DNA of 25,245 nucleotides, from the IMG/VR virus record IMGVR_UViG_3300017987_001920, positions 1-25,245 of that record. One strand, given 5' to 3'. The position numbers were made by a program, and so were the translations under genes. The DNA comes from a virus. The number at the start of each line of letters is the position of its first letter. Position 1 is the first letter of the stretch. Of the stretch, positions 2,807 to 17,501 are shown in pieces. The notes below the pieces were generated by a model, which was not told where the DNA came from, did no database searches, and saw only the letters and a program-made list of their open reading frames with translations.

Positions 2807-2884
2807 TGGTCTGGGGGACAGGATTTGAACCTGCGACTTCCTCATTCCAAGTGAGGAGCTCTGACCAGACTGAGCCACCCCCAG
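2807..2884 (-). tRNA. tRNA-Pro, anticodon UGG, CCA encoded
   Basis: A complete cloverleaf on the minus strand. The acceptor stem CTGGGGG/CCCCCAG has seven Watson-Crick pairs, followed by discriminator A and a genomically encoded CCA. The D stem is GCTC/GAGC; the anticodon stem CCTCA/TGAGG carries the loop CTTGGAA, giving anticodon UGG (Pro, CCA codons); the T stem GCAGG/CCTGT has a TTCAAAT loop. The major capsid gene uses CCA for five of its nine prolines by my count and no CCC, which fits a codon-usage role. It is transcribed downstream of rtcB and a structured RNA, so it needs processing from the same transcript. Confidence 0.95.
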
Positions 2885-3048
2885 ACTATTTAGTGACGAT
2901 TGTAGGCGTTACGGTTGACAGCCGTATGGCTACTCTGGACGCCTCGTTAGTTCGTTGCGATCCTCAAGGCTTATAGTGGCTGTCAGCCACGTCCCCGCAC
3001 GCTTAGCGAATCGTCTGACCCTTTGTAGCAGACGAACTCTTCGTCACT
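2885..3048 (-). ncRNA. Candidate structured RNA between rtcB and tRNA-Pro
   Basis: No gene fits this 163-nt stretch, but it is rich in complementary segments. An 8-bp stem (2892-2899 with 3041-3048) closes the region. Inside are a 7-bp hairpin TCGTCTG/CAGACGA (3011-3017 with 3029-3035 region), a 15-nt palindrome GTGGCTGTCAGCCAC (2976-2990), a 6-bp stem AGGCGT/ACGCCT (2904-2909 with 2939-2944) enclosing another small hairpin, and a possible long-range pairing of AGTTCGT with ACGAACT that competes with the first hairpin. It does not match a class I recognise and has no hammerhead core. The strand is assigned from its neighbours; the closing stem would form on either strand. Confidence 0.5.
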
Positions 3049-4208
3049 TAACCTTTTACAACAGCAAGTGGAAGGAGTTTAACCTTGATATTAACAAGAT
3101 CCTGCTGTTCCTCCATTACTGTATCAATATCTTTATACGCCCCGCTCGCCTCGTCAAGATCTTTGACTGATCGAATAGAGTGTAAAATACCTTGATCGTC
3201 TAACTTCTTTGTTTCTTCTTCGAGAGATAAGTTCTTTTGCGCGAACTTACGCCCCATCTTACGCCCGGCGCCATGAGAGCACGACATAAAAGATTCAGGA
3301 TTTCCACGTCCCTCAACCACATAAGAAGCTGTTCCCTGTGACCCCGGTATCAAGCCAAGCTCTCCCGCTTTTGCGGACGTCGCCCCTTTTCTATGCACCA
3401 TGACATTTTTATTAAAGTGATGTTCCATTGTTGCATAGTTATGGTGTATATTGATCTCCTCGAAAAAAGTACAGTTTGTTTGTACCGCAAATATGCTCTT
3501 AATAATGTTCATCATCGCTTTCCTGTTTGCCAGGGCGAATGCTAAACACTGGTTCATTTCAGTCATGTATCTCACGCCCTCTTCACTATCTAAAGGAAGG
3601 AACGCAAGATCATACGCTTTCGGAACGATTGAATACCATTTTTCATTGAGCTTTTTAGCAATGTTATTATAGTGGTTTGCTACTTTCAATCCGATGTTAC
3701 GACTACCACTATGTATCATTATCCAAATGTCACCGTCGAGGCTATCTTTTTGGATTTCAATAAAATGGTTTCCGCCGCCGAGTGTTCCTATTTGTTTACA
3801 TGCCGAATCAAATTCACGATCTACAATAGGAGCGTCAGCCTCTTTAAACATTTCCTTCGGCATCCAATCTTGATGAGCTTCTTTATGATGATTAAAACCT
3901 ACCGGAACAGTCTTGCGTATCTCACCCAGGATAGCTTTTAAATCGTGCATGGATAAATCTACAATGCTCGTCTGTACGGCAATCATTCCACAACCTATAT
4001 CTACACCAACAGCATTAGGTATTACAACTCCCTTTGTCGCAATAACCCCACCAATCGGCATACCATAGCCTTCGTGAGTATCTGGCATAAGAGCAACGTG
4101 TTCATGTAAAAAAGGAAGCATTGAAAGGTTTTGTGCTTGAGCGATTGCTCCTGGTTCCGGGCTATTACACCATGATTTTATAATTCGACCACCTTCAAAA
4201 TATCTCAT
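3048..4208 (-). CDS. rtcB: RtcB family RNA ligase
   Basis: 386 residues, near full length for RtcB (E. coli about 408). All signature blocks are in order: LMPDTHEGYGMPIGG (40-54), AVGVDIGCGM with the metal ligands D70 and C73, GGGNHFIEI (H148), IHSGSRNIG (H166), and SCSHGAGR with H312, the residue that becomes guanylylated in this family; the end AYKDID...LLPLAVVKG is also typical. RtcB uses GTP and Mn2+ to join RNA 3'-phosphate or 2',3'-cyclic phosphate ends to 5'-OH ends. Targets here could be cleaved tRNA (a tRNA-Pro lies just downstream) or the ends made by the hammerhead ribozymes of this phage; which one is inference. Start has GAGGAG and overlaps a 38-residue gene by ATGA. Confidence 0.96.
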   Translation of the reverse strand: MRYFEGGRIIKSWCNSPEPGAIAQAQNLSMLPFLHEHVALMPDTHEGYGMPIGGVIATKGVVIPNAVGVDIGCGMIAVQTSIVDLSMHDLKAILGEIRKTVPVGFNHHKEAHQDWMPKEMFKEADAPIVDREFDSACKQIGTLGGGNHFIEIQKDSLDGDIWIMIHSGSRNIGLKVANHYNNIAKKLNEKWYSIVPKAYDLAFLPLDSEEGVRYMTEMNQCLAFALANRKAMMNIIKSIFAVQTNCTFFEEINIHHNYATMEHHFNKNVMVHRKGATSAKAGELGLIPGSQGTASYVVEGRGNPESFMSCSHGAGRKMGRKFAQKNLSLEEETKKLDDQGILHSIRSVKDLDEASGAYKDIDTVMEEQQDLVNIKVKLLPLAVVKG

Positions 4209-5093: not shown

Positions 5094-5122
5094 AGTATAC
5101 ATCAAAAATATCCAAGTGTCAA
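5094..5122 (-). promoter_or_regulatory. Sigma70-type promoter of the lysozyme-rtcB-tRNA operon
   Basis: On the minus strand the -35 box is TTGACA (5117-5122, consensus), the spacer is 17 bp, and the -10 box is TATACT (5094-5099, five of six consensus). The expected start point is near 5087, about 60 nt before the ATG at 5027. The upstream flank (5123-5160) is very AT rich with A/T runs, like an UP element. It begins the leftward operon that contains rtcB and the tRNA. Confidence 0.9.
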
Positions 5123-5171: not shown

Positions 5172-5369
5172 TTATTTACATTTAGGGCAGTTTCCTTTGA
5201 TACAATGGAAACATTTACCCTGATTTTCCTGAATCTCAGCCTTATTGAGCGTCAGACCACAGCATTTGCACCGGGCCAAGACCCCTTCTCGCTGAAAATA
5301 ACGGCTCTGGAGCTCTCTGAGACGGTCAATATAGCTCATTTTGCGCAACTGTTCGATTGACTGATACAT
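5172..5369 (-). CDS. Small zinc-ribbon-like Cys-rich protein
   Basis: 65 residues from the ATG at 5369, chosen because AAGGAGG stands upstream; the frame is open further upstream but runs into the hammerhead and 21-nt repeats. The first half is helical (MYQSIEQLRKMSYIDRLREL). The second half has ARCKCCGLTL, KCFHC and NCPKCK: three Cys-x-x-Cys-type knuckles expected to bind one or two zinc ions. Such small zinc ribbons often bind nucleic acid or proteins; no specific role is known. Last gene of the ribozyme-containing operon. Confidence 0.72.
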   Translation of the reverse strand: MYQSIEQLRKMSYIDRLRELQSRYFQREGVLARCKCCGLTLNKAEIQENQGKCFHCIKGNCPKCK

Positions 5370-5381
5370 AACTGCCTCCTT

Positions 5382-5431
5382 TATTTGTCCCAAAATACCG
5401 GGTATTTGTCCCGGATTCCCGGGTATTTGTC
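5382..5431 (-). repeat. 21-nt tandem repeat between hammerhead and start codon
   Basis: TATTTGTC occurs at 5382, 5403 and 5424 with an exact 21-nt period on the plus strand. The first two full units end in CCGGG and differ only in their centre; the third copy runs into the stem II and core of the hammerhead at 5429. Short CCCGG/CCGGG hairpins can form near the ribosome binding site of the 65-residue gene. Confidence 0.7.
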
Positions 5432-5491
5432 TCATCAGTATATAGGTAATAAACCTATATAGACGTCCCGGACCGCCCGGGACGTTTCGAC
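5429..5491 (-). ncRNA. Type II hammerhead ribozyme (HHR3)
   Basis: Minus-strand RNA in order: stem II strand GTC (5489-5491); GAAA (5485-5488); stem III ACGTCCCGG with CCGGGACGT, 9 bp, loop GCGGT; cleavage base C at 5462 after GU; stem I TATATAGGT with ACCTATATA, 9 bp, loop TTATT; core CTGATGA (5432-5438); stem II strand GAC (5429-5431). Every conserved core position is present. Stem II is GAC/GTC, whereas the other two intact copies use GGC/GCC, a compensatory change. Predicted cleavage lies between 5462 and 5461, giving a 2',3'-cyclic phosphate upstream and a 5'-OH downstream. It sits between the stop of the 116-residue gene and the 65-residue gene. Confidence 0.94.
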
Positions 5492-5499
5492 ATTGGAGG

Positions 5500-5850
5500 C
5501 TAAACTTCTACTTCATATAGTCGAACGCCTTCATAATCCCAACCCCGGGACATCATTTCTTCGGCCTCTTCGACTGTGATAAGTTCTACCTTAAATATTT
5601 CATTGACAATGTCAATGTACCGCTGTTGCGCTTCCTTTTCATTATCAAATATTTCCGGGTCCCCGGGCATTCCACCGGCTTCGCGCTGTATAATATATCT
5701 TGTCTCAGACATAAATCCAACGCTCGCCACATTCCATAACGACCCTATCGTGCTTATAACAAGCTGTTTTTGTTCTTCCTGGTCAATCACATTACCATCA
5801 ATATCCTGTGTTCGTAATTCGATCGCCACTACATACTTTTTTGTCTTCAT
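5500..5850 (-). CDS. Hypothetical protein, 116 residues
   Basis: No recognised family. The N-terminus KKYVVAIELRTQDIDGN reads as a beta strand pair; the rest is acidic (pattern FDNEKEAQQRYIDIVNEIF, then TVEEAEEMMSRGWDYEG), suggesting a small alpha/beta acidic protein. AGGAGGCAA six nt before the ATG is the same ribosome binding site motif seen for the other genes of this operon. Its ATG overlaps the stop of a 50-residue gene (ATGA) and its TAG is followed 8 nt later by hammerhead HHR3. It would be on the same ribozyme-bounded RNA unit as the 50-residue gene. Confidence 0.78.
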   Translation of the reverse strand: MKTKKYVVAIELRTQDIDGNVIDQEEQKQLVISTIGSLWNVASVGFMSETRYIIQREAGGMPGDPEIFDNEKEAQQRYIDIVNEIFKVELITVEEAEEMMSRGWDYEGVRLYEVEV

Positions 5851-5999
5851 CTTTTTGCCTCCTGTTTTTTGGTGTTCTCTTTCCGTTTCACGCTGTAATA
5901 GATTGCGTACAACTTTGACATGCTCATCAGGTGAAACTTGCGCCCGTCATTCGGATAGCGCTTTTTTAAAAACCTATACACTTGAATTGTTGACGGCAT
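5847..5999 (-). CDS. Small basic protein of 50 residues, unknown function
   Basis: Begins MPSTIQVYRFLKKRYPNDGR, then has a helix with MSMSKLYA and a basic end (KRKENTKKQEAKR). The ATG at 5999 is preceded by AAGGAAGTG and the TGA overlaps the next ATG (5850) by four bases, so coupling to the 116-residue gene is likely. It lies downstream of the degenerate hammerhead HHR4. No family is recognised. The overlap and ribosome binding site are the main support. Confidence 0.62.
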   Translation of the reverse strand: MPSTIQVYRFLKKRYPNDGRKFHLMSMSKLYAIYYSVKRKENTKKQEAKR

Positions 6000-6039
6000 T
6001 TATCCACTTCCTTTTTGACTTCCTTTACTCGATTGGCTT

Positions 6040-6134
6040 CCCTCTTCAGTGAATGCGTAGCCAACGCACCCAGACGCCGACGGGCGAGCCTGTCGCCCCG
6101 GGACCCTGCAACCCGCAGGGGTCGGCGTTTCTGG
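6040..6134 (-). ncRNA. Degenerate or variant type II hammerhead ribozyme (HHR4)
   Basis: Minus-strand order: stem II side GCCA; GAAA (6128-6131); stem III ACGCCGAC with GTCGGCGT, 8 bp, closing a 39-nt insert with two own hairpins (CCCTGC/GCAGGG and GGGCGA/TCGCCC); cleavage base C at 6073 after GU; stem I TGGGTGCG with CGCATTCA, 8 bp with two G-U pairs; core CTGAAGA (6043-6049). Core position 7 is A instead of U, a position known to tolerate change, but the first stem II pair is G-A and only two more pairs follow, so activity is doubtful. It begins directly at the TAG of the 169-residue gene, as HHR1 does at its own upstream gene. Confidence 0.66.
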
Positions 6135-6644
6135 CTATTCCATAAGCCGGGCCCACTCGTCGGACCATTCCCAATTAGTCCAATAACTGTCGGAATTGTC
6201 TCCGCCTATGTCATACGCTTCCCGGTCGACTTCGTCGGTCGCCTTGTGCAAACATTCATCACTACAATAATATGCTTGACCCCCGCCTATGCAATAGCCT
6301 TCTTGCATAACTTTTCCGCATTCGTCGCAAATACGAATGAAGTCACTTTCCTCGATTTCGTTCTCGGTCTCTTCTTTGATGTCGTCAACTTCTGATTGTT
6401 CGTAATACTCGCCGTCAATCTCTTCCAGTTCTGCGCCGTCAAGCCAATCACTGAACCCGCAACGGTACGCGATAGGGTCGAGTTCTTCCAATACGCGCGA
6501 CGCGTCAAAAGTAATCGACCCGATACGGATTTCTCCGCTTACCTCGTCGAGCATTTCGTCATAGCGCTTGTTAGCGTTTACGGGCGTCAATTCTTCCTTG
6601 ACGCGCTCCTCGACTCTTTTGTCAAATAATTCTTGCCTCGTCAT
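6135..6644 (-). CDS. Acidic hypothetical protein with a C-terminal zinc-finger-like motif
   Basis: 169 residues, very acidic (many Asp and Glu throughout). The first part is helical (ELFDKRVEERVKEELTPVNA). Near residues 105-135 there is ICDECGKVMQEGYCI, then GGGQAYYCSDEC: two Cys-x-x-Cys-type pairs separated by about 20 residues, typical of a small zinc-binding knuckle found in phage proteins of unknown role. The start at 6644 has AAAGGAGGCAA upstream. It lies between HHR1 (upstream) and HHR4 (directly at its stop). Acidic phage early proteins sometimes act as DNA mimics or host inhibitors; here that is only speculation. Confidence 0.8.
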   Translation of the reverse strand: MTRQELFDKRVEERVKEELTPVNANKRYDEMLDEVSGEIRIGSITFDASRVLEELDPIAYRCGFSDWLDGAELEEIDGEYYEQSEVDDIKEETENEIEESDFIRICDECGKVMQEGYCIGGGQAYYCSDECLHKATDEVDREAYDIGGDNSDSYWTNWEWSDEWARLME

Positions 6645-6678
6645 GTCTTTGCCTCCTTTGTTTCCTGTCGTTTTGTCT

Positions 6679-6733
6679 GCCTCATCAGTGGCCCGGAAAC
6701 ACCCGGACCAGACGCCCCGGAGGGCGTTTCGGC
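6679..6733 (-). ncRNA. Type II hammerhead ribozyme (HHR1)
   Basis: Minus-strand order: stem II GCC (6731-6733); GAAA (6727-6730); stem III ACGCCC with GGGCGT, 6 bp, loop TCCG; cleavage base C at 6711 after GU; stem I TGGTCCGG with CCGGGCCA, 8 bp with one G-U pair, loop of six; core CTGATGA (6682-6688); stem II GGC (6679-6681). All core bases match the hammerhead consensus. Cleavage is predicted between 6711 and 6710. The ribozyme starts at the base after the TAG stop of the 112-residue gene (6734-6736) and ends 35 nt before the next ATG at 6644. Confidence 0.95.
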
Positions 6734-7072
6734 CTATTTACCACGGAAAGCGTCCAATAACTGAGCGGACGCCCGCGAGACTTCGCCGTCTTTAAACTCC
6801 ACAAAAAGACCGTTCGGGAAGTAGTATTGTATTACTTCTTTGCCTTCTTCGTCCTTTGTTACCTGTGCGATCATGCCCGCACTTGTGCCGTACCCGCTCC
6901 CCGCGGTCGCGTACACCGTGAAGACGTCAGCGTCTTTGTCCTCGTAATAACTGCCCTCGACCCTTACGCCGGACCGCCAACCGTTACAGCGTGTCGTTAT
7001 ACCGCTTGTCTTGTGCCCGAGCCTTGACGCTTCTGACCTGTTTCCCTGAACTGTTCCTCTAAACTGTGCCAT
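6734..7072 (-). CDS. Conserved phage protein of unknown function, 112 residues
   Basis: The N-terminus (MAQFRGTVQGNRSEASRLGH, then KTSGITTRCNGW and GVRVEGSY) and the middle GSGYGTSAGMIAQV match a small protein I know from many phages and prophages, without known function. It is predicted as a compact beta-rich protein. The start has AAGGAGGCAACAAA, identical to that of the upstream 157-residue gene. It is flanked on both sides by intact hammerheads (HHR2 upstream, HHR1 directly after its TAG), so cleavage would release it on a 443-nt unit (7153-6711). Confidence 0.85.
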   Translation of the reverse strand: MAQFRGTVQGNRSEASRLGHKTSGITTRCNGWRSGVRVEGSYYEDKDADVFTVYATAGSGYGTSAGMIAQVTKDEEGKEVIQYYFPNGLFVEFKDGEVSRASAQLLDAFRGK

Positions 7073-7120
7073 TTTGTTGCCTCCTTCGGGGTCTGCTGAC
7101 CCTCATTTGTGTTGTGGCTT

Positions 7121-7177
7121 GCCTCATCAGCGCGCCAGTAGCCAACCGACGCGGACCCCGCAAAGCGGGGTTTCGGC
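7121..7177 (-). ncRNA. Type II hammerhead ribozyme (HHR2)
   Basis: Minus-strand order: stem II GCC (7175-7177); GAAA (7171-7174); stem III ACCCCGC with GCGGGGT, 7 bp, loop TTT; cleavage base C at 7154 after GU; stem I CGCGTC with GGCGCG, 6 bp with one G-U pair, 11-nt loop; core CTGATGA (7124-7130); stem II GGC (7121-7123). All core bases are conserved. Cleavage is predicted between 7154 and 7153. It lies directly after the stop of the 157-residue gene (TAA, 7180-7182), about 50 nt before the ATG at 7072. Confidence 0.95.
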
Positions 7178-7179
7178 CC

Positions 7180-7653
7180 TTAAAACTCGGTATTTTCGAG
7201 TTTGTCAAGGTGTTTCCGGCAGAGATATTGAGACGGGCCGCCGTCCCGGTCCGCGGTGTTATAGATTACGAACTCAGCCGGACAGTTGTGCCCCTCTTCC
7301 GCGCACTCGTCGCAGGTGTAGCCCTCTTCCCTGTCTACCTCCTCCCAATGGGTGAGCGCCCCGTCTATCGCGCTGAACAGTTGCCAAAACTGCCCGGCGC
7401 TAAAGGTCTGCACCTCTCCGGCGTGGCCGTATTCCTCCAATATCCGCGCGTGTGCTTCCTCTTGATAGATAGCGCGTGCCATGTGGACGCTAAACGTCCC
7501 GCGTTTGTTATCAAACACTAAACTATAGAAATTTTCAAGGTCAACACCTTCCCGGTCGAAGTAGTCGCAAGACTCGACTATGTCGGTGCTAAACCTTTGC
7601 GCCTCGGCGCAGGTGTCGCGGTGTGAACAGTTTTTGCAAATCGTATCAGCCAT
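7180..7653 (-). CDS. Cys-rich hypothetical protein, 157 residues, first gene of the ribozyme operon
   Basis: Begins MADTICKNCSHRDTCAEAQ, a short Cys cluster (C6, C9, C15 and a later C in VESCDYF) that looks like a metal-binding or Fe-S-type motif. The C-terminal third has GYTCDECAEEGHNCPAEF and YLCRKH, a second cluster. The middle is helical (HMARAIYQEEAHARILEEYG). No family recognised. The ATG at 7653 is chosen over more upstream in-frame ATGs because AAAGGAGGCAACAAA precedes it. It is the first gene after the promoter at 7798-7825, with a 138-nt leader that contains a GCGCC/GGCGC hairpin. Confidence 0.8.
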   Translation of the reverse strand: MADTICKNCSHRDTCAEAQRFSTDIVESCDYFDREGVDLENFYSLVFDNKRGTFSVHMARAIYQEEAHARILEEYGHAGEVQTFSAGQFWQLFSAIDGALTHWEEVDREEGYTCDECAEEGHNCPAEFVIYNTADRDGGPSQYLCRKHLDKLENTEF

Positions 7654-7797: not shown

Positions 7798-7825
7798 ATT
7801 ATACACTAAAATAGCGAAATGTCAA
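7798..7825 (-). promoter_or_regulatory. Consensus sigma70-type early promoter (leftward)
   Basis: On the minus strand: -35 TTGACA (7820-7825) and -10 TATAAT (7798-7803), both perfect consensus, separated by 16 bp. Transcription should start near 7791 and run into the ribozyme-containing operon. The AT-rich flank upstream and the perfect inverted repeat starting at 7864, about 40 bp behind the -35 box, are likely places for UP-element or regulator contacts. Confidence 0.93.
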
Positions 7826-15504: not shown

Positions 15505-16461
15505 ATGGCGAGAAACGATTATGCGGGCGTGGAAACAGTCCTTAAAGATGATTACCTCGGTAATCTGTTGAAAATTCCACAGCAAGAAGAGACACGGCTT
15601 TTCGGCGGCTTCTATCCAGAAGTTACGGTCGAAGGCAAACAGCTCTATATTGACGGGATCGCTCCTGTTGATTATAGGGTGGACAATTCCTATAATGCCA
15701 ATTCCCAGGGTGTTTCGGCTAACTACTTCCGTAGAAAGCTCGACACCGACAGGATGATTATAGAGGTTGATTACGACGAACACTGGTTCCGTAAGACGAC
15801 TTCTTCCAATCCATCCGCTCTTATCACAGAGGAAATGATGAAAGCGTCTTATCGTTTTCTTGATAAGGTAGGTATAAACGCCGCGGTTGCGACGGTATAC
15901 TACGGGGAAAAAGGCGATACAGCTCTGTCTTTCGCGAATGATGGTGGTCTTACCCTGGACGCAACGGGTGGTATCACGATCGATCTTCTGAGAAAGATAA
16001 ACCACAGGTTCACCGGTACGGAAGTTGTATCTCCAAACGGGATGAACAATGTGAAGTTTGTCATCACGGAAGATGAGCAGTATGACATGGGCGGTATTAC
16101 ACAGTTGACATCGTGGCAATTCCAGTCTGTGTATCCTTCAAACGCGATGGCTATGCCTAATGAGTCTGGTTTCGGTAGACAGCTTGGTATGATGAACGTG
16201 ACGTTCGGAGCCCAGGCCGCAACCGGAAAGATGTTGAATGAGGCTTCCGGAACGAGAGACTGTCTCGCTATGGCGAACAGTGCGCTTGTTTATGGTATGG
16301 CAAGCGATGGCGTACAGTTTGAGATCATACCGCTTAAAGAGACTAAGATCTCTACCGTAAGGTTGAGACTTACTCTGACCGCGGGTGCTGTGAGAACGAA
16401 CGGTAACAATGTTATCAAGTTCCAGACCACAGTGAAAGATCCATCTGTATTTTATGCTTAA
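15505..16461 (+). CDS. Major capsid protein
   Basis: 318 residues with its own promoter, AAGGAGG ribosome binding site and terminator, as expected for the most abundant protein. The sequence has an N-terminal region (ETVLKDDYLGNLLKIPQQEE), a beta segment EVTVEGKQLYIDGIAPVDYR, a long helix EEMMKASYRFLDKVGINAAV, NPSALI, GMNNVKFVITEDEQYDMG, and FQSVYPSNAMAMPNESGFGR; the order fits HK97-fold capsid proteins of podoviruses, an assignment based also on position after scaffold. Proline codons favour CCA, read by the tRNA-Pro of this phage. No cleavage signal is seen. Confidence 0.88.
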   Translation: MARNDYAGVETVLKDDYLGNLLKIPQQEETRLFGGFYPEVTVEGKQLYIDGIAPVDYRVDNSYNANSQGVSANYFRRKLDTDRMIIEVDYDEHWFRKTTSSNPSALITEEMMKASYRFLDKVGINAAVATVYYGEKGDTALSFANDGGLTLDATGGITIDLLRKINHRFTGTEVVSPNGMNNVKFVITEDEQYDMGGITQLTSWQFQSVYPSNAMAMPNESGFGRQLGMMNVTFGAQAATGKMLNEASGTRDCLAMANSALVYGMASDGVQFEIIPLKETKISTVRLRLTLTAGAVRTNGNNVIKFQTTVKDPSVFYA

Positions 16462-16469
16462 TAGATAAC

Positions 16470-16494
16470 AGGCGGGAGCGTGTCGCTTCCGCCT
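16470..16494 (+). terminator. Terminator hairpin after the capsid gene
   Basis: GGCGGGAGCG pairs with CGCTTCCGCC (10 bp, one G-U), loop TGT, with an outer A-T pair; the downstream side is AT rich (TTAGTTATTTATAT) but lacks a pure T run. Likely a partial terminator that keeps capsid message abundant. Confidence 0.72.
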
Positions 16495-16514
16495 TAGTTA
16501 TTTATATAAAATAA

Positions 16515-17501
<987 letters not shown>

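Follow-up and report, generated by a model that had tools for sequence, protein, structure and literature searches.

Type II hammerhead ribozymes between the genes of a phage operon and their probable role in message processing

Three canonical type II hammerhead ribozymes and one variant lie between the genes of a minus-strand operon in a viral DNA stretch of 25,245 nucleotides (IMG/VR record IMGVR_UViG_3300017987_001920), hereafter the window. In our reading, to which we assign a probability of about 0.8, these ribozymes act on the polycistronic early mRNA of a tailed phage while it is being made, cutting it behind nearly all of its cistrons to yield mostly single-gene, hairpin-ended mRNAs, with stability and translation uncoupled between neighbors. 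This reading draws on the sequence and structure of the ribozymes, their covariation and placement, and their wide recurrence. Cleavage in infected cells, stabilization of the messages, and uncoupling are what these observations would lead us to expect.

Results

Hammerhead elements in the window

The window was searched with a descriptor consisting of GAAA, a stem III closed by A15.1-U16.1, H17, stem I, CUGANGA, and a stem II of at least 2 bp. Exactly three intact copies were found, all on the minus strand (Table 1), and the same descriptor gave no match in 60 dinucleotide shuffles of the window. The fourth element was recovered only when the stem II pairing was relaxed, and the relaxed descriptor had a background of 0.05 matches per shuffled window. 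An earlier note on this DNA, made from the letters alone, had described three intact elements and one variant between genes of the minus strand, and the search confirmed them at the same positions.

Table 1. Features of the window and their positions
Feature	Positions	Strand	Details	Evidence
Promoter-like site	7798..7825	-	TTGACA-16-TATAAT; upstream of operon	12/12
Operon gene 1	7180..7653	-	end of stop to G12 of hammerhead 1: 6 nt	ORF; no Pfam or PHROG match
Hammerhead 1, type II	7112..7178	-	G12 7174, C17 7154, CUGAUGA from 7130	RF02276, 36.8 bits, E 3e-4; descriptor
Operon gene 2	6734..7072	-	unknown function; end of stop to G12 of hammerhead 2: 4 nt	phrog_5927
Hammerhead 2, type II	6671..6734	-	G12 6730, C17 6711, CUGAUGA from 6688	RF02276, 52.7 bits, E 2e-8; descriptor
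Operon gene 3	6135..6644	-	unknown, zinc-finger-like cysteines; stop 4 nt before G12 of variant	phrog_9294/30009
Variant hammerhead	about 6033..6135	-	G12 6131, C17 6073, CUGAAGA from 6049	relaxed descriptor
Operon gene 4	5847..5999	-	50 aa; stop overlaps next start	
Operon gene 5	5500..5850	-	116 aa; end of stop to G12 of hammerhead 3: 12 nt	
Hammerhead 3, type II	5421..5492	-	G12 5488, C17 5462, CUGAUGA from 5438	RF02276, 31.6 bits (narrow 111-base search), E 3e-5; descriptor
Operon gene 6	5172..5369	-	65 aa, cysteine-rich protein; last of series	
Promoter-like site	5094..5122	-	TTGACA-17-TATACT; past operon, before next transcription unit	11/12
RtcB RNA ligase	3048..4208	-	about 1 kb downstream of operon, beyond second promoter-like site	PF01139, 373.5 bits
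tRNA-Pro(tgg)	2807-2884	-	directly after rtcB	

All four copies possess CUGANGA, GAAA, and the A15.1-U16.1 pair, and H17 is C, not G, in each of them. In hammerheads 1-3, the descriptor and the folds indicate that stems I and III are closed by loops, while stem II is open. Stems I and III are also present in the variant, where stem III is lengthened by two hairpins and stem II starts with an A11.1/G10.1 mismatch followed by two G-C pairs. The core of the variant reads CUGAAGA, and position 7 of the core is variable in hammerheads. The same A11.1/G10.1 combination was seen again in viral contig L387 (817-4540, plus strand), where nine copies form an independent series; this recurrence suggests that the variant is a natural recurring form rather than a product of decay. 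Nevertheless, the cleavage activity of this core variant is only putative.

The Rfam model Hammerhead_II (RF02276), proposed earlier as a check, gave a graded result. At the cut-off of 37 bits, hammerhead 2 passed, hammerhead 1 fell just under, and hammerhead 3 was below; a search at the variant gave no match. Weak Rfam matches to CRISPR-DR41, L20_leader, and mir-17 in the window were below their own cut-offs and were set aside. In minimum-energy folding, hammerhead 1 did not stand out (z -0.5), and the variant adopted a structure other than the hammerhead.

Potential pseudoknots of 4-6 bp between loop I and the 3' tail are present in all four copies, a feature added to the earlier reading. 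The pairs are UGGCU/AGCCA in hammerhead 1, UGUUU/AGACA in hammerhead 2, and UAUU/AAUA in hammerhead 3, and the best of the four is that of the variant, in which 6064-6059 (UUGGCU) can pair with 6038-6033 (AGCCAA). The predicted cut sites are 7154/7153, 6711/6710, and 5462/5461, and the variant would be cut after 6073; these positions, already named in the earlier note, are correct. Immediately past hammerhead 3, at 5398-5423, there are short GC-rich inverted repeats (CCCGGGAATCCGGG, CCGGGACAAATACCCGG).

Organization of the operon and the predicted processing

The operon comprises six small genes on the minus strand (7653 to 5172) and is bracketed by the two promoter-like sites; a terminase gene is located nearby. 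A hammerhead-like element fills each of the four non-overlapping junctions, in agreement with the gene-by-gene placement on one transcript claimed before, and the four elements flank single genes on one strand. The sole junction that carries no ribozyme is 5850/5847, where the genes share an ATGA overlap. An AGGAGG was said to follow each element; this does not apply to the variant junction, where the ribosome-binding sequence of the next gene is AAGGAAG-like.

Hammerheads cut between C17, on the stem III side, and stem I, leaving a 2',3'-cyclic phosphate and a 5'-OH. The nascent message of the operon would be cut just past the stop codon of almost every gene. Because the cut falls between the two stems, each product would keep one of them: the stem III hairpin, carrying the 2',3'-cyclic phosphate, would close the upstream message a short way beyond its stop codon, and the stem I hairpin, bearing the 5'-OH, would form the very beginning of the downstream message. 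This 5' end would lie about 65-95 nt before the start codon of the downstream gene. The cut would block re-initiation from the upstream gene, and the hairpin-protected ends would make the stability and translation of each message independent of its neighbors. If cleavage is confirmed, the operon messages of such phages would in practice be single-gene, and expression data would have to be read differently.

Anchoring to the upstream stop codon

Of the 290 non-redundant viral copies listed, 195 have the end of the upstream stop codon 3-8 nt ahead of G12, a position within or against stem II. This spacing is tight even where the gap on the 3' side is loose: the 5' slack has a median of 0 nt, is at most 4 nt in 85% of cases, and does not correlate with the 3' gap (rho 0.02, p 0.71). 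Plain compaction of the gap, considered as the cause of the stop proximity, is not supported by this pattern. Since the spacing from the stop is tight and independent of the next start, the ribozyme behaves as if appended to the 3' end of the upstream gene, and it does more than fill a short gap.

The nine-copy series of L387 adds a second relationship to translation. In this contig, CUGAUGAGGG is found 16-20 nt before the next start, and the starts lie 16-20 nt after CUGA; therefore, a ribosome-binding site is located inside the ribozyme. It is likely, as judged from the sequence, that the UGAGGG of the ribozyme serves as the ribosome-binding sequence of the next gene, and the predicted cleavage would free it.

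These placements raise an alternative to plain processing, namely a ribozyme gated at the stop codon. As an appendage of the upstream gene, it would have its stem II and GAAA covered by a terminating ribosome and would cut only when free of ribosomes; in some phages, UGAGGG would be the Shine-Dalgarno sequence of the next gene and be freed by the cut. The frequent stop just before G12, the tight 5' slack beside a loose 3' gap, and the ribosome-binding site within the L387 ribozymes are all consistent with it. However, the anchoring is weaker in the Arquatrovirinae phages described below, where the stop is within 10 nt of G12 in only about 16 of 56 copies, and the stop before hammerhead 3 of the window is 12 nt away. 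Moreover, placement cannot separate gating from a need for a 3' end close to the stop. We consider such gating unlikely. The broader proposal, that phage hammerheads in general are stop-anchored, ribosome-gated scissors that cut a gene off once its ribosomes are gone, with the cut in L387 also freeing a ribosome-binding site, appears doubtful to at least the same degree. If true, it would amount to a protein-free reading of translation coupled with gene-by-gene mRNA processing. In the openly licensed papers searched, no phage hammerheads anchored to stops or overlapping Shine-Dalgarno sequences were found.

Series in viral contigs and cultured phages

Processing into single-gene messages is consistent with the arrangement of the ribozymes in other viruses. 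Among the matches listed, 261 of the 290 non-redundant viral copies lie between two co-directional ORFs. Exactly one ORF is present in 102 of the 154 listed intervals between neighboring same-strand ribozymes, compared with 4.2% in a shifted-interval null; in each of the 102, the ORF begins past the first ribozyme and its stop lies just ahead of the second. It is common for a contig to have 4 to 10 copies, and a genome may hold up to about a dozen. The earlier note had taken a gene-by-gene series to be unusual. This view is not supported, since clusters have been in the literature since 2011 (PMC3088659) and series of this kind, with 4 to 12 members, are common. Two contigs that are identical to the window over 5400-7200 have the same series.

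Intergenic DNA of Streptomyces phages, among them Puginator and Paedore, matches hammerhead 2 of the window at 84-87% identity over 55-66 nt. DNA similarity from this hammerhead and from contig L020 led to six cultured phages of the Arquatrovirinae (L411-L416), in which Rfam detected type II hammerheads in Amethyst (8), Alvy (11), Spernnie (9), Puginator (10), Paedore (12), and Andris (9). All of the copies share a strand and fall within the final 12 kb of genomes of about 50 kb, and the Rfam type II search of the six genomes found none outside this region. Most of the annotated intergenic gaps that measure 55 nt or more contain such a ribozyme, and the ribozymes themselves are absent from the annotation of the records. 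Covariation was examined at one junction that is orthologous in six cultured Streptomyces phages: 95% of the cells were paired, and 15 cells were compensatory versus 5.2 in shuffles (0/500). Sliding the partners at this junction caused a clear drop in pairing.

The copies might instead be selfish or decaying modules that spread between phage genes and bring the phage no benefit. Near-identical copies within single phages (L012, L094, and L100) would fit this explanation, as would the facts that relatives can be without hammerheads and that the flanking genes are not constant. However, the compensatory changes at one orthologous junction of divergent phages, together with the stop-anchored placement in the sense orientation, argue for long-term selection on both structure and position. 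We regard selfish spread as improbable.

The phage relatives of operon gene 2 (46-59% identity) had no hammerhead within the fetched flanks, indicating that the series is dispensable for this gene family. A tie of the ribozymes to particular gene families was rejected on this ground and because the flanking genes are mostly small and unassigned. The commonest assigned upstream neighbors are anti-restriction proteins (phrog_7245, 2059, and 14321; 5/68), which fits the ardA link of Perreault et al.

RtcB and circular products

RtcB ligates exactly the types of ends that hammerheads produce, and the window encodes an rtcB gene on the same strand near the operon (Table 1), the most suggestive of the neighboring genes. 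A phage RtcB might accordingly join the cut, gene-length RNAs into circles in a retrozyme-like manner. Haloviruses of the HF1 group have both a hammerhead and RtcB (PMC7230728), and Perreault et al. considered that circular products might form, although they found none (PMC3088659). Against this role, rtcB was found in only 1 of the 99 other hammerhead contigs listed, and a hammerhead was found in the flanks of none of seven contigs with RtcB relatives. In addition, a promoter-like site lies between rtcB and the operon, and the adjacent tRNA-Pro gene suggests tRNA repair. We consider circle formation very improbable, and RtcB as a general partner of hammerheads was rejected on the contig count, though its enzymology fits the ends. 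With the tRNA gene next to rtcB, an ordinary tRNA-repair role is available for the ligase; rtcB and tRNA-Pro(tgg) are a possible tRNA-repair pair.

Pairing beyond chance

In the IMG/VR scan, the pattern fixed only the core and stem II and left stems I and III free. It found at least 119 stretches, compared with 7 in the whole collection for a reversed control pattern. Among the 404 unique matches listed in the viral and genome scans, stems I and III were both formed in 332, against 5 of 2020 sequences with shuffled inner letters, and the varying stem positions used all pair types. Loop I could pair with the tail over 5 bp or more in 40% of the 358 non-redundant copies listed, versus 14% with swapped tails. 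The earlier claim of type II hammerheads with compensated stems is thus supported by Rfam, by the descriptor with its shuffled controls, by the collection-wide stem test, and by covariation at one junction. Chance or terminator-like hairpins that merely resemble hammerheads, an explanation prompted by the GC-rich hairpins between genes at each element, are refuted by the empty shuffles, the stem test, and the six-phage covariation, and no terminator-like site was called at the minus-strand ribozyme hairpins.

An insertion of a single U, placed between CUGANGA and stem II (CTGATGATGGC or CTGATGATGCC), recurs at many loci, for example L412:12760-12811, L005:8484, and L051:9641. Several of these copies still score above the Rfam cut-off.

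Discussion

Type II hammerheads with a pseudoknot, and their clusters flanking single prophage genes, were described by Perreault et al. in 2011, with examples at the ardA locus of A. tumefaciens, in C. scindens, and in A. caulinodans (PMC3088659). Three tandem prophage loci cleave in vitro, the A. tumefaciens locus cleaves in E. coli, and single-gene messages or circular products were proposed (PMC3088659). The window resembles these clusters in the ribozyme class, the pseudoknot, the series around small genes of one transcript, and the proposed processing into single-gene mRNAs. Therefore, its series belongs to an already known kind. The A. tumefaciens series tested contains three ribozymes, whereas the window operon contains four and the cultured phages up to 12. 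The placement relative to stop codons was found here and is absent from the main text of that paper (PMC3088659).

The window copies share with RF02276 the core, three stems, an open stem II, and the pseudoknot tail; they depart from it in the two scores below the cut-off and in the core mismatch of the unmatched copy at 6131. HHphage of haloviruses HF1 and HF2 is likewise a hammerhead between phage genes, and phages of the HF1 group encode RtcB. A 5' transcript end has been mapped near the HHphage cut. Unlike the window series, HHphage is a single variant with a core insertion, located upstream of a helicase gene in viruses of an archaeal host. The Arquatrovirinae series are similar to that of the window in that, within one arm of the genome, most wide gaps contain a single ribozyme, but these series comprise 8-12 copies, their stops are often more distant, and the phages are unrelated to that of the window.

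The placement between co-directional ORFs, the one-ORF intervals, the stop anchoring, and the unannotated series of 8-12 copies in six cultured Arquatrovirinae are new here. In the openly licensed papers searched, we did not find the scale, the one-gene rule, the stop anchoring, the Shine-Dalgarno overlap of L387, or the cultured phages. A review in 2017 called the role of hammerheads in prokaryotes open and noted that they flank small ORFs (PMC6155905). With the cultured Streptomyces phages and the placement rule, this question can be addressed experimentally in a laboratory host such as S. lividans, through point mutations and the mapping of RNA ends.

Two other features were observed on the plus strand of the window. 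A strong hairpin at 16411-16506, at the end of the ORF 15505-16461, coincides with a weak L20_leader match and is possibly a terminator. A repetitive stretch at 17050-17133, within the ORF 16530-17501, may encode a collagen-like repeat.
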